64,000 nt of DNA. Source: Bacteriovoracia bacterium (GTDB taxonomy: Bacteria; Bdellovibrionota; Bacteriovoracia; Bacteriovoracales; Bacteriovoracaceae). The stretch spans positions 310,001 through 374,000 of the forward strand of contig JAUIIL010000003.1 in assembly GCA_030431635.1 (NCBI GenBank), read 5' to 3'. Positions 41,435 through 51,102 of the stretch are shown piece by piece. The notes under the pieces were generated by a model. That model was given only the letters and a program-made list of their open reading frames with translations, searched no databases and was not told the DNA's origin. The position numbers were made by a program, and so were the translations under genes. Position 1 is the first letter of the stretch; each line of letters opens with the position of its first letter.

Positions 41435-41549
41435 TTTTTCTGGTCGTTTTCCCTAACTCCCTCTCCCTTCCTAACTGACCAGAAAAAAGAAGTAAGACCC
41501 AAACCCCTCCATGAAAAAAAGGCCCTCTTAATGAGGGCTTTTTTCATGG
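41435..41549 (+). ncRNA. Candidate 3'-UTR-derived small RNA with C-rich loop
   Basis: Four bases after the stop codon of the small exported protein, TTTTTCTGGTC (41435-41445) pairs with GACCAGAAAAA (41477-41487). The 31-base loop is all pyrimidine-rich with several TCCC blocks (CTCCCTCTCCCTTCC). A linker with ACCCCTCC (about 41503-41510) and a strong terminator follow. C-rich single-stranded motifs in small RNAs often pair with Shine-Dalgarno sequences. This is a structural prediction only. Confidence 0.4.
41509..41549. terminator. Bidirectional intrinsic terminator
   Basis: CCATGAAAAAA-GGCCCTC on the left pairs with GAGGGC-TTTTTTCATGG on the right around a short TTAAT loop. A runs before and T runs after the G/C core let it stop transcription from both sides. 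The stem includes the stop codon of the convergent HExxH-protein gene. Confidence 0.9.
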
Positions 41550-43742
41550 GTCGAAACAATGTCCGTTTTCACAAACAATATAATCTTCATAGATGCTGGC
41601 CCCAAATTTCCAAACGCTTTTAAGATACTTGAGATAAAATCTTAAAGCTCCGAAGTGAAGCTCTTGAGCATAATGATAGGCCTCATGAGAAAGGAGATCG
41701 ACTGAATTAAAACGAGTGCTCTCTTGGATACTAACATTACCTGCGACTTCAAAGCTTACATTATTAATGACTTTTGAATATAAAGAATCCTTTCTCCAGA
41801 TAACTCTGTCAAAATGCTCTTTATTCATGACAAGAAGTTCACTGGAATAAGCACGCTCAGATATTGCTGGGTTATGAGTGCTTTCTGCATATTGATTAAG
41901 GTTTTCCTGAGTCACTAAATCTCTAGGGTCATACCTAAAACCTAAGATGAGAATTTTAACACCTGCCAAAGCAGCACCATAAAGAACTCCCTCCTTAATC
42001 CCTTTGAGAGCATCTCCATTATCAAGGACAGCAATAACCAATCCTCTTACTGAAGAATGAAAGGAAGTTTGAGCTATTTCGATGAGAGCATTAGCAAAAT
42101 TTTGATCCATTCCTTTAACTGTGTAATGAGAAAAGCCCACAGGTAGTTGAAGAAGCAAAGCTTGATAGACACCTCCCGTGATAATTCCAAGATCTATCGG
42201 GCGTCCAGTCATGAGTGCCTGGAAACCTCCAGAGACTCCTCCAACAAAAAGAGAGTGAGCAAGTTGTCCTGATAAATATCCAGCGGCCAATGCCGAGCCC
42301 ATGAGAATTCTTTTAGGAGATTTTTTTATTTCATTAATCCATTGGCTTCCGTAATGAAGGGAATTCAAAGAATCAAATACAAGAGAGTAGGTAACAACAC
42401 CTCCAAAAGGGCCAATGAGTTGAGAAACAAGAAGAGAGCTAAGAGAACTTAAAATTGTTTGATAAGTAAAAGTTCTTTTTAAAAACTGAGTTGTATTAAA
42501 TACAATCTTTCCTAGTCCTGTTGTATTGAGTTTCTTGGCGTTTCCTTGTGAGGTAACAAAAAGATCTTCTCTAAACCAAGGAGAGTCAGGGAAATATTTC
42601 AAGAGTGCCGGAGTTAAGCGAATAACTTCATCTTTAGTGGGAAGTTTCCCTTCAAATGAAAGAGTACTTTTTTGAGAAAAGAGGTCTTTATTTTTGCCCA
42701 ACCATAACCTTGCTCTTTGAATAATAGCAGGGTTCTTTTGGTTTAAAAGGTAGGCGAGTTGAAAATCTCGGTAGGACTGCAAAACTTTTTCAGTATGAAT
42801 GAAAATTTGAGTTGGAGTGAGAAAAAGTGCTTGAATGCCAGGGAAGATTTCTTCTTTGTGAACAACGACTTCTGGATAGCGCTTTATTAAATAAAGAAAA
42901 AAAGCGTTTTTATTACTTGCTCGGTAAATGCTTCTGTAGAGAGGGATTACCTGCTGTCGGATTTTTTGACGCTCTTTCTTAAAAGGTTGAGTTGAGTACT
43001 GAGGAAAAAGAGAAATTCCAATAGGCCGACGCGGATTGTATCTCATTTCAAAAAGATTTTGAGTTTGGTATTTTTTTGAGTCTTTGGTTTCAAGTGAAAG
43101 GAGGTTTCTTGCAAAAAGGCTTTGATAGGAGAGAGTTATTTTCTTTATTTCCCTAAGGCGGATTCGTTTCATTTTTTGAACAGTGAGCCGCTTTGTGAGA
43201 TAGGATGGCAAATACTTTTTTTTCATGAGATAGCACAGTAAGTTTTCTCCATCTGGATGGCGCACTATTTTGTTAAATTTTTCAATTAATCTTAAGCGTC
43301 TAAGTCTAGATAAGCGTCCTTTTTTAAGCAAGGAAAGAGAGATAGATTCTGCTTGAAAGTCTGAATTGTAATTTTGGGCAACAAGAAGACTTATTTCTTT
43401 CGGGTAGGGAGTTTTTAGTTTTTTGATAAAACGGTATAGACTTTCAAAGTTTTCAATTGGTTTTTCTTGAAGGATGTTTTTAAGACGATTGAGATTCTGG
43501 AGGTCATGATGTTTGAAAAGAATATCAGAAACCTGGTCGATCAGATCATCGACCAATAACTCAAGTCTTTTGTGAGTGTAAGGATGAAGAGCAGAGTTTT
43601 GAGAGTCAATGTCCTCTAAAGCTCCACTTCGAGAACTCTGTAGGAGAAATTCGATATAAGAGTCGTTGTCTAAGTGAAATTGAGGCGAAGAAAAAGCCCA
43701 TAAGATTTTGGTAAAAAATAAAACAATAAAAAAAACTCTCAC
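41544..43742 (-). CDS. Exported protein with C-terminal HExxH motif, putative metallopeptidase
   Basis: 732 residues from a GTG start with GGGAG upstream. Signal peptide near residues 1-17. The first 400 residues are basic and helical with no recognised domain. A glycine/alanine-rich hydrophobic zone follows (about 425-600; for example ALAAGYLSGQLAHSLFVGG and GVLYGAALAGVKILILGF). Near the C-terminus SHEAYHYAQ gives H686-E-A-Y-H690, the zinc-binding motif of many metallopeptidases, with Glu719 (IYEDY) as a possible third ligand. Other reading: a structural protein with a chance HExxH. Divergent from the exported-protein genes that begin at 43912. Confidence 0.6.
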   Translation of the reverse strand: MRVFFIVLFFTKILWAFSSPQFHLDNDSYIEFLLQSSRSGALEDIDSQNSALHPYTHKRLELLVDDLIDQVSDILFKHHDLQNLNRLKNILQEKPIENFESLYRFIKKLKTPYPKEISLLVAQNYNSDFQAESISLSLLKKGRLSRLRRLRLIEKFNKIVRHPDGENLLCYLMKKKYLPSYLTKRLTVQKMKRIRLREIKKITLSYQSLFARNLLSLETKDSKKYQTQNLFEMRYNPRRPIGISLFPQYSTQPFKKERQKIRQQVIPLYRSIYRASNKNAFFLYLIKRYPEVVVHKEEIFPGIQALFLTPTQIFIHTEKVLQSYRDFQLAYLLNQKNPAIIQRARLWLGKNKDLFSQKSTLSFEGKLPTKDEVIRLTPALLKYFPDSPWFREDLFVTSQGNAKKLNTTGLGKIVFNTTQFLKRTFTYQTILSSLSSLLVSQLIGPFGGVVTYSLVFDSLNSLHYGSQWINEIKKSPKRILMGSALAAGYLSGQLAHSLFVGGVSGGFQALMTGRPIDLGIITGGVYQALLLQLPVGFSHYTVKGMDQNFANALIEIAQTSFHSSVRGLVIAVLDNGDALKGIKEGVLYGAALAGVKILILGFRYDPRDLVTQENLNQYAESTHNPAISERAYSSELLVMNKEHFDRVIWRKDSLYSKVINNVSFEVAGNVSIQESTRFNSVDLLSHEAYHYAQELHFGALRFYLKYLKSVWKFGASIYEDYIVCENGHCFDP

Positions 43743-43911
43743 CCTAAACTCCCTATTTAATTATAAAAAATAACGAGAATGATGGTAAGTTTAGTTGGAT
43801 AATGTAAGATATACACGGACCAAGTGTGAAAAAAGTTCACTCTCTCAGTGTGGGAGAGAACTGCTGCTTATTTTATTGCGCATGGCGCCATTGGTCTTGT
43901 ATAAGATTCCT

Positions 43912-45201
43912 ATGAAATTTCTCATTCTACTCGTCATGTTGTCATACAGCTTTGCAAGCGACTTTCCTTTTGCTGGAATCCATTCTCTATTTAATCGCAA
44001 ATACGATCAGTGTTCTCACTTTTCAGAATCTCTCCCTTTGATTTTGAAGAAGATGGAAATGGCCACTACAAACTTGGAGTTCAAAAACGCTCTTCACAGA
44101 AACGTTATAAAAAATTTAGTCTCCTTAAAAGTGCCTCTTGTTCAAGATGTCAATAACAGTCACTTTAGGGAAGAGTATTTCTCAGATTATCTAAAAATTC
44201 TCTTTGGAAAGGGCGCTGATGACATAACTGAACTCAAAGAGATACTTAAGCTGCTTCAAAAAGAAGAATTGAACCGGGATGAGCTGAGAAATTTTATTCA
44301 AGAAAAATCGAAAGGAAATATAAAAGCTATTTTCTATGATGAAATAGAAGCTTTTGCTAAGAAAACACCATCTCTTAACGGCCAGGGGATTAATTTTCGG
44401 ATTAAAAAAAATGGAGAAATTTCTAACGAACTCTATTTCAGGCTTTATGCTTTAGGGAGCATTCCTATCATTGATCACCATGATATTATCTCTCACCTCT
44501 CCCTCTCTAGGATAGAGTCACTACAAAGAGCAACTAAGAAGTTATCAACCCTTTATGTGGGCCAACCTCCTCAGAGTGAAATGTTGCGGTTTTATCAAAT
44601 GCTCATTTATAGAATTTGGGGAGGATTACAAGAGAAGCTTATTTATCTGAAAAATCGTGCTGGAGTAGTGGAGAGTTATGACTATATTGGAGGTTTTACT
44701 CCAGTCAGTATTGGTATGATCCACTGGGCCAGTCAAAACTTTGAGTTTGAAAAAGTTTTTAATCTCGACCCGATATGGAGCTCGTTTCTAGGAAGTAAAA
44801 ACTTTTACCTTTCAGCGTTTCATGGAGAAGCTAGTGAATTAGAAAGTGCCAAAAAGCTTAAAGTTTTTTTTGAAGAACACTCTTTTCCTACGGATAAAGA
44901 AGGTTTTATTAAGAATTTTGAAAATATAAAAAAGAGTTACAAATGGCTCCTAGAAAATGCTGGGGCCGGTGTTAAACGTACTTATGAAGAAGCGTTTATG
45001 AGTAAAGGAGTGGAGGGGCTTAAAAACCCAATTGAAATTTTTAAAGATAATATGGTGAATGGCTATAATTCTCATGCACTATTTGAAAGTCATCCCATCC
45101 TACAAAACTTTTTAAGTACTGATAAGCAAGCTCACTTTTGGTCGTTACATATTGATGTCCTTTTAGAGCTGTTAGAGAAACAAATAAAGGTCGAATATTA
45201 G
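43912..45201 (+). CDS. Exported protein of unknown function
   Basis: 429 residues from the ATG at 43912, which opens a good signal peptide (KFLILLVMLSYSFAS); the frame also opens at a TTG at 43795, which would bury it. The ribosome site is weak. The mature protein is mainly helical, with a conserved-looking IPIIDHHDIISHLSLSRIES segment around residues 182-201. No domain recognised. The next gene follows after ten bases, so it probably shares a transcript with the methyltransferase-fold protein. Confidence 0.6.
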   Translation: MKFLILLVMLSYSFASDFPFAGIHSLFNRKYDQCSHFSESLPLILKKMEMATTNLEFKNALHRNVIKNLVSLKVPLVQDVNNSHFREEYFSDYLKILFGKGADDITELKEILKLLQKEELNRDELRNFIQEKSKGNIKAIFYDEIEAFAKKTPSLNGQGINFRIKKNGEISNELYFRLYALGSIPIIDHHDIISHLSLSRIESLQRATKKLSTLYVGQPPQSEMLRFYQMLIYRIWGGLQEKLIYLKNRAGVVESYDYIGGFTPVSIGMIHWASQNFEFEKVFNLDPIWSSFLGSKNFYLSAFHGEASELESAKKLKVFFEEHSFPTDKEGFIKNFENIKKSYKWLLENAGAGVKRTYEEAFMSKGVEGLKNPIEIFKDNMVNGYNSHALFESHPILQNFLSTDKQAHFWSLHIDVLLELLEKQIKVEY

Positions 45202-45211
45202 TTGAGGGCTT

Positions 45212-46093
45212 ATGGTTTGCATTTACTTGGTCTTTTTTGTCATAATAAATTCCTTTTCAGCATACTCTATAGAATGTGAAAAGCTATTAATGTCTCAACA
45301 AATCGTTCGTAAACATGACTTTGATGTAGAAAGGGAGCTTAAGGATTACTATAGAATGCTTGGTCCTCATTTTATTTTTCATTTAGCCAAAAGTTCTCAT
45401 TGGTTTGATTCAGGGGCTGGAAACCTTGGGGCAGTAGCGAACCTTCTTTCTGAAAACTACAAAATAAATGTTTTTAATGTACCTCAGGAGTATTTAGATT
45501 ATGCAAACTTTTTTAATGAAAAAATAAGAAGTTTTTGGCAAGAGGAATTTTTCTCTAAACTTAAAATCACTGCGCTTACTTATAAAATCAACGAAAGAAG
45601 GAAATTGTTTAAGTTGCCTCAGACAAAAAAACTAAAAATACTTACGGGAAAGTATTTCGAAGAAACGAGCTCTAAAGAAATTGAAAGTTTTGGTAAGGTA
45701 AGTTTGTTAACAGATGTGATGGGGGTATTTACTTACTCAAGTGATCTATGGACAGTTCTTTCAAGATACTACGAGATTTTAGATACTAACGGAGTTGCTT
45801 TTATTGCGCTTGCAACTAAGAATAGTGTTGTCTATGGAACTTCTCTCAGATTAAAAAATCAAGAGGTATTATTAGTTGAGTGGCTATCAAAACATTACCC
45901 TCATATCTTTTCTTTGGAAGAAATTAAACAGCCAGCAGTTCGCTATTTTGAGGGACAAGCTGTTCGAAGTGATTCTCAGTGGGTTTTGGTGATAAAAAAA
46001 TCTGAAGAATTTTTAGATTTGCCAAAGTTCAAAAACATTGAGTATTCATCCCCAGGAACAGCCCCCAGTAGAGTTTTTGAGCTTGCTTATTAA
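45212..46093 (+). CDS. Exported protein with SAM-methyltransferase-like fold
   Basis: 293 residues; ATG with GAGGG upstream. The first 19 residues form a signal peptide (VCIYLVFFVIINSFSAYS). The rest reads like a class I methyltransferase: motif I-like HWFDSGAGNLGAVANLLSE (D66, G68, G70, G73), then a strand KINVFNVP, and a motif IV/post region KVSLLTDVMGVFTYSSDLW (Asp168) with YEILDTNGVAFIAL after it. No catalytic NPPY/DPPY motif is seen, so substrate is unknown. SAM is cytoplasmic, so export is odd: the protein may act in another cell, or the fold may have another use. The fold call is by eye. Confidence 0.55.
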   Translation: MVCIYLVFFVIINSFSAYSIECEKLLMSQQIVRKHDFDVERELKDYYRMLGPHFIFHLAKSSHWFDSGAGNLGAVANLLSENYKINVFNVPQEYLDYANFFNEKIRSFWQEEFFSKLKITALTYKINERRKLFKLPQTKKLKILTGKYFEETSSKEIESFGKVSLLTDVMGVFTYSSDLWTVLSRYYEILDTNGVAFIALATKNSVVYGTSLRLKNQEVLLVEWLSKHYPHIFSLEEIKQPAVRYFEGQAVRSDSQWVLVIKKSEEFLDLPKFKNIEYSSPGTAPSRVFELAY

Positions 46094-46185: not shown

Positions 46186-49100
46186 ATGAAAAAAATTTAC
46201 GTCTTCTTATCTCTGTTTTTGCTCTTATTTCATTCTTTTTCTTCTGCTTGGGCCACCGATAAAATTGTCTATAAAAGTCTAGAAGAGCTTCTAAGTGGAC
46301 TTTCACAAAAAGAAACAGAGGAGCTGGATGGTGTATTCAATGAAAATAAGATTATTGATCTCGAGCAAAGTGGCAAGAGTGAGCTTTCAAGCTGGGTAGA
46401 AGAACTCAATTTTAGATTAAGTGAGTCTCTATCGAAGCTGGGTAAACACTATGCTCAATATCAAATTTACTTTATCGACTCTTCTGAGCCACAAGCCTTT
46501 CTTTATAAGTACGAGCCTAAAGGTCTTGAGTTTTATCGTTGTCATGTTTTTATATCAACAGGACTCATTAGTAAGTTTTCAGAAAAAATAGTGAGTAAAG
46601 GACTGTCTCTTGAAGAAGAAACTCAAGATATTTTGAAAGGCTTGCAAGGGATTTTGGCCAGAGAGTTTGTTGAACCTAAGCAAGGTGAACTTATTAAGAA
46701 AGACTGGGATTTCTCAGGAGATAGCGCAGAAAGACAAACTCAAGCAGATGAATTAACAGCAGATTTAATGACTGTAAATCTGTTGAAAGAAGCAGAACTA
46801 AGTACGGACTCTCTTCTGTATTTTCTACAGAACTTAGAAAGAGAGAAAGATGATCAAAGTAATGCTTTTCTTGACGGTATAGTAAGTGCTTTTTCTCAAA
46901 GTCCAGAACTAGAGATGAGAATAAATGCGTTAAGGGCCAGGTTAACTCACTTACGCTTGAATGAAGGGCAGAAGAAAGAAAAGCAAATAGCTATCAATCT
47001 TTCACAAATCTCAGAAGAGCTTTCCTCATTATCAGATCAATCTAGAAATCAACTTCTTTATGAAAAACTTCCAGAGAAAAGTGACATTGAGAGTATGCTG
47101 GTTAAACTTGAACAAGGACTAGATTTTTACAACAGCCAAGATAGCCAGGGAGCTAAATGGGATTATGAAAGGGATATCCTTTTTCTTCATGAAGCACTAG
47201 AGAAGCTCTATGAAAAACAACTAACCTCTACTGATAAAGAGTATTATTTTAAAAGTACTTTAAAGCTCATTAGTTCTCCTGATGAGTGGTATTTAAATGC
47301 TTTTAATGATTCACAGTGGATGAAAGGTAACGATGGGCACGTTGATATATCTTCTTATAAGATGAGGAATTATCAAGAAGGTTTAAGGAAATCTGTTTTT
47401 TTTCAAAAGAATAATTTTTTTGAAGAGTTTGCATCATTATCTCAAGAAGAGCTTACAAATATACTGAAGAAAAAAAACTTTCATGAACTCTTAATCTTTT
47501 TTCCTGTTCGTGACCTTGAGGCCTTAATACCTGAATATTTAGTTTTTATTGACTCGCTGGAAGGAGAGAAAAAGGTAGAGCAATTATTAAGACTCTGGAG
47601 TAGCGTAGTTAAAGCAAATTTTCATATCCAAACGGAAGTTAAAATTTTAAAGAAAGTTCTTGATGCTTTTCAGGAAGAGGGTAATCGCGAGCACTTCATC
47701 CCCTATATGTATAACCTTGAGAGAACTTTTCAGGAGAATATATTTCTTAATGAGCGCTTTGTTCGTTACCGTCCATCTCATCCAGAGGAGAGTAAAGAAC
47801 TGCTAAAGCTCTATTTTGAGTTTTTTAACCTTGGAATGAGAGAAGGTGAGCGTTTTACGAAAGCGATTGGACTAGATCTTTTCTTAAAGATTCTTTATTG
47901 GAACCTTTATCCCAAGAAACTTCTCTCATCCTATAAAAATAATGGAGCTTTCAATCCTCTTTTAGTCTTGGATTATTTTAAAGAACCTGCTGAAAGTGAA
48001 AATTGGGATAACTTCTTTGATGAGAATTTTCAAACTTTAAAAATGTTGTCTGACGAAGGTGGCTCTTCTACATTGAGCTTTGGGAACTTCTTCTTTTTTT
48101 TACAATACAATAATGTTTTTGAAGGAAAGGATTATCAGAAAGCTTTTTATTCATTCATTAAAGGGTTGCTTGTAAAGTACATTGGCAAAGATGGTCTGAA
48201 GTTAGAAGACTGGCACTATTATATTAAATTTTTGAATGACCAGCAGATGACAGAAGTTGGCTTTGTGGATGCGTTACTGATTGATATCGCTCAAAAACAA
48301 CCCAAAGAGGTTAAAAAGTTTATTTTAAGTGGAAAGTTTTTAGCTTCAATGAAAGAGGCAGCTTTCGGTTCATCTTCACTGACTTCCTTACATGTAGAGT
48401 TACTTGCCTCTTTAAAAAAGAATGGTGTTATTACAAGCCAAGAAGCTCTGGTGGCGATAGATAAGCAAATGAGCTTCGTTTCTGAGTGGGGAGGGAACTC
48501 CTTTTTTAACTCTATTGTAGATAATAGGTTCGGTCGGAGTGCCTCAATAGAGCTTTGGCGCTTTTTTTATGACAGAGATGATTATAGTGAGGGTTTTTTT
48601 GAATTTCTTTTTAAAAATTATGCTTTAAGTGAAAAGGCCAAAAAACTTATAAAAGAGAAACGTATTGAAACTTTGGGCAATGAGTTTGTTGTTATCATGA
48701 GTTCTCTGGGGATTGAGTACCATCCTATTTACACTCAGAGATTGCAATACCTTTCTGGGCCTTTAATACGTGAGTTTAAAAAGAGTGTTGGTATCGAAAG
48801 TTTAGATATTCATTCTTTAGATTATAAGAATAGGTTTAAAGATAACTTTGTCCAGGCCAAGGATTATTTAAAAAAAATATTTAACCCAGATGGTATTTCT
48901 ATACCAATCCAATTTCAGTCTTACTTCAATTACACGGCTTTAGATCCTTTGGCTGATGACTTCTTAGAGTTAATTCCAGAGGGACTAGAATATGAACAGT
49001 ATCTTGAAATTTTTAAAACTGTAACAGCGAAGAGGGCCAACCAGTATTCTGATAAATTTTTTCAAAAATTTCTCTATAAGAAAGTTCTGTTAGAAAACCA

Positions 49101-51102
49101 AAAAGAAACTTTAAAAGATATTTTGATGTTCGCAAGATTAAGATCTGAGAAAATAAAAGTTTCCATTGCTCAGGGATATTTTTTAGAAAGAGTAGGGAAC
49201 TTAAAAGAGAAAGGTCATATAAGTGATAAAGAAATCTCTGCCCTGAGTTCTTCCATTCAAAAATATATAACAAACCCTTCCAGGTTTTTAGATGATTATT
49301 TAGAAGAAATTTCTTGGAAGCTTCATCTGAATGAAAAACAATTAGCTGTCTTTATTGAGCCTTTAAAATCTTTTAATTATACCCGTTTTAGTGTTGATTC
49401 AGTGAACTCTCTGTCAAGTTTAAGTAAGCTCATTTCTCACCTCACAACTTCAGAGAAAATTAATCTCATTAAATATATTCAAAGACCTAGCGGAAGTATT
49501 TATGACGCTGTCCCAAGGATAGGTATCTTAATTGAAAAAATCGCGAATCCTTCCATAGGTAGTATTCACTCTCCCTTTGGAGGTCTCGGAGGGGGATTTG
49601 AAAGTGGAGCAAAGGCAGAAATTGATAAGTTTGAAATTAAACTTAAAGATGCCAATGATGAGGAGAGACTCCTTTATATAGAAAATATTGTTGGCTCAAG
49701 AGACTACGGTCTTTGGTTTCAAGGAAAAGAAATGAGAGATAAGCTTTATCATTTGGCCGAAATCAAAGGGGATAAAAAAATTCTTTTTGAAAGTTATATA
49801 AAAGCTCTGCCAGAACACGAGCACTCGATTACTCTTTCTTATCTACTTGCTTCGGTTGGAGGGGAGCATGAATCAGAGCTTTTACGAACTCTTGAAACTT
49901 TTCAAACCCCCGGACATAAATTTGCTCAAATTGCTTCTATCTTTAATATTTTTGGAGAAGAAGAATCTGAAAAACTTGCCAAGGCCAAAAGCAGGGCCAA
50001 GCCACCAACCAGATATCTTGTTTATAAACTACTTCGGGAGAGATTATCCCCAGCAGCTTTCGATGAAATACAAAGTGTGGATAAATTGCTTGGTTCTGGC
50101 TCTATTAAGTACGTAGCAGCTGTGACATTTAAAAATGGAGAAAGAGCAGCCGTTTATTTAAAAAGACCTTTTACTCAAGAGACGAATGAGTCTGTTTTAA
50201 ACATTGCCGAAGAATGGATGAAATATTTGAAAGAAGATCCTGAGTTTTCTAATAAATATGATTATGACTACTATTTGAAGTCACTAAGAGAGCAACTTGA
50301 AATTGAAATAAACTTTTCCTTAGAATCTCAGAAAGCTTTTGATATGGCCGCAATGTATGAGGCCAGGAAACCTTATCAAGGCTGGAAGTTTAAAGGGATT
50401 AGGCCGATTCAATCAAAAACGATGAGTGACGAGGTTATTTTTTATGACTTAGTAGATAATGTAACATCATTTGAAGAGCTTCCAGATGAGCAAAAACAGT
50501 ATGTTTCCCAATATATTATTGAAACTGAATTAGACGCTCTTTTTAGAAATGGTGATGCTGACAGGCATATGGGAAATTACCTTTTCGATTTAGAAAATAA
50601 AATTATTTACCCTCTCGACCCCGGACAGTTTTATCAATTAGAAAATAAAAGTATTTTAGGCTTAGGAGAGACCTATTTTACGGCCCAAATGCTTTATGCT
50701 TTTAGTTTAAAGGATAAAACAAAAGCTGCGCAAAAGCTTTTTTATGTTTTTGATAGACTCAAAACAAACGATAAACCTATTTCAAAAAACGATAAGGCAC
50801 TTTTTGTTGAAAACGTAAGAAATATTCTTTCAGGTGAGGAAGGACTAGATAAAAAGATTTTATCTGTCATGTCTGAATTAAACCAAAGAAGAATAAGAAT
50901 TCCTTTTAGAATATCTCTTGGTGTAATCAAGGGCTTTTCTATTGTTCTAAAAGAAGAATACGCTAAAGTCGCAGGAAAAGAGTTTGTTGAAGAAAGATTA
51001 GAAAAAGAAATCAAAAAAATTATCATAGGGCACTTACCTGCCAAGGCCATTGAACAAGTAAGTAGCTTTTTTTGTAATGAGAAATTTAGCAGCAAAAAAT
51101 AG
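46186..51102 (+). CDS. Very large exported protein: degenerate M48-like N-terminus, helical middle, ABC1/UbiB-like kinase C-terminus
   Basis: 1,638 residues from ATG 46186 (a TTG three codons earlier is less likely). Signal peptide to about residue 23 (SSAWA). Residues about 85-215 resemble M48 peptidases (YFIDSSEPQAFLY, VFISTGLISKF, QADELTADLMTVNLLKEAEL), but HExxH is replaced by R159-E-F-V-E. A long helical region follows. From about 1290 an ABC1/UbiB pattern appears: GSGSIKYVAAVTFKNGERAA, EINFSLESQKAF, then D-R-H1461-M-G-N1464, LDPG with D1478 where DFG is expected, and RRIRIPFRISLGVIKGF. The usual ATP-binding Lys position is Tyr1324 (VYLKRP), with Lys1326 two residues on. Known UbiB/ADCK proteins act inside cells, so export is unusual. 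Confidence 0.65.
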   Translation: MKKIYVFLSLFLLLFHSFSSAWATDKIVYKSLEELLSGLSQKETEELDGVFNENKIIDLEQSGKSELSSWVEELNFRLSESLSKLGKHYAQYQIYFIDSSEPQAFLYKYEPKGLEFYRCHVFISTGLISKFSEKIVSKGLSLEEETQDILKGLQGILAREFVEPKQGELIKKDWDFSGDSAERQTQADELTADLMTVNLLKEAELSTDSLLYFLQNLEREKDDQSNAFLDGIVSAFSQSPELEMRINALRARLTHLRLNEGQKKEKQIAINLSQISEELSSLSDQSRNQLLYEKLPEKSDIESMLVKLEQGLDFYNSQDSQGAKWDYERDILFLHEALEKLYEKQLTSTDKEYYFKSTLKLISSPDEWYLNAFNDSQWMKGNDGHVDISSYKMRNYQEGLRKSVFFQKNNFFEEFASLSQEELTNILKKKNFHELLIFFPVRDLEALIPEYLVFIDSLEGEKKVEQLLRLWSSVVKANFHIQTEVKILKKVLDAFQEEGNREHFIPYMYNLERTFQENIFLNERFVRYRPSHPEESKELLKLYFEFFNLGMREGERFTKAIGLDLFLKILYWNLYPKKLLSSYKNNGAFNPLLVLDYFKEPAESENWDNFFDENFQTLKMLSDEGGSSTLSFGNFFFFLQYNNVFEGKDYQKAFYSFIKGLLVKYIGKDGLKLEDWHYYIKFLNDQQMTEVGFVDALLIDIAQKQPKEVKKFILSGKFLASMKEAAFGSSSLTSLHVELLASLKKNGVITSQEALVAIDKQMSFVSEWGGNSFFNSIVDNRFGRSASIELWRFFYDRDDYSEGFFEFLFKNYALSEKAKKLIKEKRIETLGNEFVVIMSSLGIEYHPIYTQRLQYLSGPLIREFKKSVGIESLDIHSLDYKNRFKDNFVQAKDYLKKIFNPDGISIPIQFQSYFNYTALDPLADDFLELIPEGLEYEQYLEIFKTVTAKRANQYSDKFFQKFLYKKVLLENQKETLKDILMFARLRSEKIKVSIAQGYFLERVGNLKEKGHISDKEISALSSSIQKYITNPSRFLDDYLEEISWKLHLNEKQLAVFIEPLKSFNYTRFSVDSVNSLSSLSKLISHLTTSEKINLIKYIQRPSGSIYDAVPRIGILIEKIANPSIGSIHSPFGGLGGGFESGAKAEIDKFEIKLKDANDEERLLYIENIVGSRDYGLWFQGKEMRDKLYHLAEIKGDKKILFESYIKALPEHEHSITLSYLLASVGGEHESELLRTLETFQTPGHKFAQIASIFNIFGEEESEKLAKAKSRAKPPTRYLVYKLLRERLSPAAFDEIQSVDKLLGSGSIKYVAAVTFKNGERAAVYLKRPFTQETNESVLNIAEEWMKYLKEDPEFSNKYDYDYYLKSLREQLEIEINFSLESQKAFDMAAMYEARKPYQGWKFKGIRPIQSKTMSDEVIFYDLVDNVTSFEELPDEQKQYVSQYIIETELDALFRNGDADRHMGNYLFDLENKIIYPLDPGQFYQLENKSILGLGETYFTAQMLYAFSLKDKTKAAQKLFYVFDRLKTNDKPISKNDKALFVENVRNILSGEEGLDKKILSVMSELNQRRIRIPFRISLGVIKGFSIVLKEEYAKVAGKEFVEERLEKEIKKIIIGHLPAKAIEQVSSFFCNEKFSSKK

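Follow-up and report, generated by a model that had tools for sequence, protein, structure and literature searches.

UbiB/COQ8 proteins, an ancient family of disputed activity studied so far inside cells or organelles, and kinases with a relocated lysine, namely, the WNK kinases and the secretory-pathway kinase POMK, are the described systems closest to the protein reported here. UbiB proteins carry an inhibitory KxGQ insert and prefer adenosine diphosphate (ADP), and the A339G substitution in ADCK3 results in preference for adenosine triphosphate (ATP) and autophosphorylation (PMC4718504). WNK kinases and POMK lack the beta3 lysine and instead have a beta2 lysine at the third glycine of the nucleotide loop (GxGxxK); WNK1 takes its lysine from beta2 (PMC4718504), and in POMK the beta2 lysine is essential for activity (PMC10211241). 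Here, we describe P0001, an apparently exported protein of 1,638 amino acids (aa) encoded in a 64,000-nucleotide window of a Bacteriovoracia bacterium (phylum Bdellovibrionota; GenBank assembly GCA_030431635.1, contig JAUIIL010000003.1, positions 310,001 to 374,000). Its architecture and homology (M48-like N-terminal domain, helical middle, and ABC1/UbiB domain) are close to certain, and we put at about even the chance that it is an exported, UbiB-derived phosphotransferase using a lysine at residue 1308 (K1308), rather than a dead UbiB protein.

The gene is an unbroken frame of 1,638 codons whose ATG start sits 3 codons 3' of an in-frame TTG and whose homologues occur phylum-wide, which rules out a chance open reading frame (ORF) or pseudogene. 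Pfam ABC1 (PF03109) matched residues 1299 to 1513 (E value, 5.9e-8; score, 32.6 bits; cut-off, 22.9). C-terminal domains were aligned (8 from this genome and relatives, then 33), and the 33-row profile recovered COQ8A/COQ8B and other ABC1 structures at E values of 1e-33 to 1e-40 (best value, COQ8A, 1.4e-40), with eukaryotic kinases far behind. The AlphaFold2 model of residues 1203 to 1638 had a predicted local distance difference test score (pLDDT) of 90 and a predicted template modelling score of 0.87, and its 12 best Foldseek matches in the PDB were all ABC1/UbiB proteins (COQ8A, MSMEG_1954, and Rv3197; E values from 6.6e-13 downwards), COQ8A matching at 6.6e-13 with a TM-score of about 0.69. 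Because family profile, model, and Foldseek matches agree, the domain is assigned to ABC1/UbiB. This fold had been proposed in a sequence-only reading of the window, and structure prediction, fold search, and ABC1 profile all bear it out; the motifs then cited (REFVE, 159 to 163; GSGSIK, 1303 to 1308; Y1324; EINFSLE, 1374 to 1380; DRHMGN, 1459 to 1464; LDPG, 1477 to 1480) all lie where they had been placed.

P0001 resembles UbiB/ABC1/ADCK proteins (COQ8A, MSMEG_1954, and Rv3197) in fold (model and profile), in a segment that keeps the K and Q of KxGQ (KFAQ), in the glutamates of ExD and alphaC, in the D-x-H-x-x-N loop and the DFG aspartate, and in an Arg/Lys facing the catalytic Asp, for which K1582 may be equivalent to R611 of ADCK3. 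It differs from them in its export, the lack of C-terminal transmembrane (TM) helices, a Gly-rich rather than Ala-rich loop, a lysine moved from beta3 to beta2, the M48-like and helical fusions, and a C-terminal Cys. An ordinary intracellular UbiB function, whether in lipid handling or in the biosynthesis of quinones, would agree with the ABC1 fold and with the similarity to NCBIfam TIGR01982 (UbiB proper; 34.8 bits), but that score is far below the equivalog cut-off of 487.55, the genome already encodes two canonical members of the ABC1 family (575 and 427 aa), and P0001 carries a predicted signal peptide and lacks TM helices at its C-terminus. Score, separate paralogues, and export rule out a canonical UbiB identity and make such a role extremely improbable.

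The nucleotide site has a WNK-like arrangement, with a lysine at the third glycine of the loop (K1308) and none on beta3 (Y1324). Canonical UbiB proteins of the phylum (loops mostly GVASIG or AAASIA) have Gly or Ala at this loop position and Lys on beta3. The kinase fold is the sole family relation of P0001 to WNK kinases and POMK, the change having arisen independently inside UbiB. P0001 belongs to a clade of 12 members in which K1245, Q1248, G1303, K1308, E1374, E1380, H1461, N1464, and D1478 are invariant and D1459 is kept in 11; K1308 is thus present in 12/12 members, while the beta3 position varies over Y, L, M, A, and S. The Lys-to-Tyr change at 1324, said earlier to leave activity open, is real, and it is matched by this invariant lysine at the WNK position. 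K1326, considered as a replacement lysine, was ruled out (4/12 members). At the KxGQ site, Gly is replaced by Ala in some members. G1305 falls by motif register on A339 of ADCK3, and its Gly is shared by 4 of the 12. In the motif table of the whole family, 23 of 36 members carry Lys at the third-Gly position.

A maximum-likelihood tree was built minus both lysine columns, with four long-branched or truncated members left out. The 12 members formed a single clade (100/99) that lies among dual-lysine relatives, canonical UbiB falling outside, and each of the two lysine traits needed 3 changes. This topology fits a loop lysine gained first and a beta3 lysine lost later, via a dual-lysine state. 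L053, a short ABC1 protein fetched with the canonical sequences, has both lysines and groups with family members L074 and L080. A second clade (L027, L065, L066, L068, L077, L070, L021, and L069) carries Asn/Arg or Asn/Thr at the loop/beta3 positions; these proteins also have a GG-ELD insert before the alphaC glutamate.

If P0001 is a Sec-exported phosphotransferase with a UbiB/ABC1 fold, it would work outside the cytoplasm, in the periplasm, at the cell surface, or in a neighbouring cell. Y1324 would have replaced the beta3 lysine after the second lysine arose in the Gly-rich loop; K1308 would take over the contact with the nucleotide phosphates and the alphaC glutamate (E1380), as the lysine does in WNK1 and POMK, and G1305 would restore a glycine where canonical ADCK3 has alanine. 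K1308 and G1305 are leads for activity, not proof of it. Several observations weigh against this reading. Across the 36 members, beta2 Lys was not clearly associated with beta3 loss (14 of 19 without a beta3 Lys/Arg versus 9 of 17 with one), an association not found because dual-lysine forms exist. Lysine at 1308 is also present in relatives that retain the beta3 lysine and may serve another role; DFG reads DPG in P0001; position 1305 is Ala in 8/12 clade members; and a counterpart (KFAQ) of the KxGQ segment, which occludes the UbiB active site, is retained.

The strongest alternative is a pseudokinase that, once exported, would transfer no phosphate and would act as a scaffold binding ADP, a lipid, or a partner, the pseudo-peptidase doing likewise. 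Loss of the beta3 lysine, the DPG motif, and an M48 site that is dead as well all agree with it, and the scarcity of ATP outside the cytoplasm, with none expected in the periplasm, counts for it and against phosphotransfer. The inhibitory insert and ADP preference of UbiB proteins (PMC4718504) point the same way. Against it stands the tight conservation, within the clade, of the catalytic Asp, the Asn, the metal Asp, the alphaC Glu, and K1308, unlike the drifting position 1324, and we regard the pseudokinase as possible but doubtful.

Pfam M48 (PF01435) scored 15.1 bits on P0001 alone, below its cut-off of 20.3, and matched 15 of 21 relatives (best E value, 6.4e-16). The family N-terminal profile found the M48 peptidase structure 3c37 at an E value of 2.4e-16, and BepA/HtpX weakly; the homology is carried by the family profile and not by the score of P0001 itself. 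P0001 is like M48 peptidases (3c37, BepA, and YcaL/LoiP type) in its N-terminal domain and its export, and unlike them in lacking both His ligands and in being fused to a kinase-like domain. Where P0001 has REFVE, aligned relatives have HEYVH, HEVGH, HELAH, and the like, and the third-ligand site (ELTAD in P0001) reads EFKAD, EIRAD, or EMATD. Of 31 members whose N-terminus is complete, 23 have HExxH, with ExxxD then following in nearly all, and loss of HExxH is limited to P0001, paralogue L019 (HNFAS), and a few others. Because most relatives keep HExxH, the loss of the peptidase site is local. The earlier claim of a dead M48 N-terminus therefore stands for P0001 and fails as the typical state of the fusion, which, on these motifs, is that of an intact-looking M48 peptidase with a kinase domain. 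Ancestrally, an exported M48 metallopeptidase would have been combined with a UbiB-type kinase, with a long helical scaffold between them; in P0001, the peptidase, its zinc ligands lost, would probably now be a binding or regulatory domain. The helical middle was modelled with a pLDDT of 67 overall, and a PDB fold search with this uncertain model gave zero matches under an E value of 1e-3.

Signal peptides were called throughout by hydropathy and an AxA-type site, not by SignalP. P0001 begins with MKKIYVFLSLFLLLFHSFSSAWA, followed by TDK after the predicted cleavage (hydropathy maximum, 2.83 over 12 aa). Signal-peptide-like N-termini occur in nearly all full-length family members, close homologues included, in agreement with the export proposed earlier; one family member has a further TM-like stretch, and P0001 has none. 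Export by Sec is very probable. With a call made from hydropathy alone, the hydrophobic segment might be a membrane anchor with a cytoplasmic body and no cleaved signal peptide, but this is improbable given the short h-region with an AxA-type site in P0001, L019, L027, and others and the long Cys-poor body (2 Cys in mature P0001, often 1 in relatives) that is typical of exported proteins.

The family consists of exported proteins of 1,400 to 2,700 aa with a patchy distribution. Of the 369 Bdellovibrionota genomes searched, at least 26, from at least 10 families, encode such a protein; canonical UbiB-sized proteins were found in most of the 369. The genome of P0001 has four long members (1,638, about 1,630, 2,009, and 1,672 aa). 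A profile search of genome contigs returned two Bdellovibrionota records, JAEUWC010000024.1 (Bdellovibrionales metagenome-assembled genome [MAG]) and JAUICD010000062.1 (Bdellovibrionia MAG). Phage or plasmid carriage was rejected, as searches of viral contigs and plasmids found no relatives. A literature search of partial coverage found no published account of such an M48/ABC1 fusion.

The phylum includes predators, and the sequence-only reading had suggested an effector acting in prey. Release into the cytosol of prey or host, where ATP exists, is a special case of the phosphotransferase reading, with which its probability overlaps. Such an effector would fit the export signals, the WNK/POMK-like repair of the active site, and the presence of predators in the phylum, and its need for ATP would be satisfied in prey. 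The patchy spread across so many families speaks against it, as do genus g71, with canonical-length UbiB only among the matches listed for its many complete genomes (3.0 to 4.1 Mb), and the lack among relatives of conserved neighbours tied to secretion or predation. The suggestion is possible yet unsupported by distribution or neighbourhood, and we consider it unlikely.

Of the 34 members whose C-terminus is complete, 30 have a cysteine among their final 21 residues (C1630 in P0001), where 1.4 would be expected from their own Cys content (P of about 2e-41, a value that ignores relatedness and is hence overstated). It sits 5 to 21 residues from the C-terminus, leaving a tail of 4 to 20 residues, and its usual form is C-x-x-hydrophobic (in the genome of P0001, often C-N-K-x-F). 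Nine members have it as their sole Cys past residue 40; in these, it can form no internal disulfide, which leaves a free Cys, a bond to another molecule, or a modification. In P0001, it would probably join the protein to a partner or bear a modification. MYXO-CTERM, a sorting tag of Myxococcota, likewise has an invariant Cys close to the C-terminal end of exported proteins, followed there by a TM helix and an Arg cluster (PMC11980579); neither follows the Cys of this family.

Similar ends were seen elsewhere. L107 (688 aa; L107:13242-15305, which is C3:273242-275305), an exported protein that the genome of P0001 also encodes and that is unrelated to the family, has a C-(N/E)-(K/R/Q)-x-(L/F) end; L107 and homologues from three further genomes (L137, L138, and L139) end in CNKLLFK, CNKYLSR, CNRYLE, and CEQYFN. 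Other Cys-poor exported proteins of the genome have similar ends (L095 1663-5301, L112 3445-4626, and L116 16306-17871). Among all exported-looking proteins in 932 kb of the genome, a C-terminal Cys was not enriched (44 seen versus 38 expected), and the idea of a general mark of exported proteins was rejected; at most, a subset would carry a tag, and such a tag in a subset is possible.

Features of P0001 (positions in the 64,000-nucleotide window)
Feature	Residues	Position	Strand	Basis
Gene of exported M48-like/ABC1 protein P0001	1-1638	46186..51102	+	Intact ORF; ATG at 46186
Predicted Sec-type signal peptide, cleavage between AWA and TDK	1-23	46186..46254	+	Hydropathy and AxA site
M48 (gluzincin)-like domain	~75-250	46408..46935	+	Family profile and alignment; approximate boundaries
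Degenerate zinc motif REFVE replacing HExxH	159-163	46660..46674	+	Alignment; both His gone, Glu retained
ELTAD, kept counterpart of M48 third-ligand ExxxD	189-193	46750..46764	+	Alignment
Helical middle, long, all-helical, solenoid-like	251-1202	46936..49791	+	AlphaFold2
ABC1/UbiB-type kinase-like domain	1203-1638	49792..51099	+	Pfam, AlphaFold2, and Foldseek
KFAQ, counterpart of UbiB-defining KxGQ (Gly to Ala)	1245-1248	49918..49929	+	Alignment
Gly-rich loop GSGSIK, K1308 at third Gly	1303-1308	50092..50109	+	Alignment and literature
Y1324 at canonical beta3 (AVK) lysine position	1324	50155..50157	+	Alignment
E1374-INFSL-E1380, counterparts of UbiB ExD Glu and alphaC Glu	1374-1380	50305..50325	+	Alignment to ADCK3
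Catalytic loop DRHMGN (D1459 to N1464)	1459-1464	50560..50577	+	Alignment
LDPGQ, DFG counterpart with metal-binding D1478	1477-1481	50614..50628	+	Alignment; D1478 invariant
K1582, possible counterpart of Arg/Lys pairing with catalytic Asp	1582	50929..50931	+	Alignment to canonical UbiB R/K
C1630, conserved C-terminal Cys (CNEKF...), 9 residues from end	1630	51073..51075	+	Family comparison

Two same-strand genes (43795-45201 and 45212-46093) run into the P0001 gene with gaps of 10 bp and 92 bp, and neither matched a Pfam or NCBIfam family. The second (293 aa) has a signal-peptide-like start, a DSGAGNLGAV stretch resembling the S-adenosylmethionine motif of methyltransferases, and few relatives. 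On the minus strand, 41544-43742 encodes an exported-looking protein of 732 aa with a central hydrophobic region, no Pfam family, a C-terminal SHEAYH (HExxH) motif, and a Cys at the very end (VCENGHCFDP). Across relatives, no telling neighbour recurred bar PrkA-type genes at two loci, and a conserved operon was rejected. These loci, L060 5760-10547 and L085 8107-11999, are from different families and adjoin the same gene set, which resembles PrkA-YeaH-SpoVR. The paralogue at C1:228k (L021) is flanked by two large exported-looking proteins (1,378 and 994 aa; L021 337-4473 and 9606-12590) without detected relation to it. A defence system was rejected, as PADLOC gave no match.

Bdellovibrionota may, as we tentatively propose, export a family of giant protease-scaffold-kinase proteins whose UbiB kinase is active extracellularly by a WNK-fashion lysine move through surviving dual-lysine forms, the family being part of a wider set of exported proteins bearing a previously undescribed C-terminal Cys tag. 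An exported UbiB branch that combines a kinase-type loop with a relocated lysine offers a natural experiment on which features turn this fold into a kinase. Every stage (canonical, both lysines, and moved lysine) is represented on the tree, so the origin of a WNK-type active site would be testable stepwise by mutation. The C-terminal Cys, if a tag, would suggest that Bdellovibrionota have a sorting or anchoring step not yet described.
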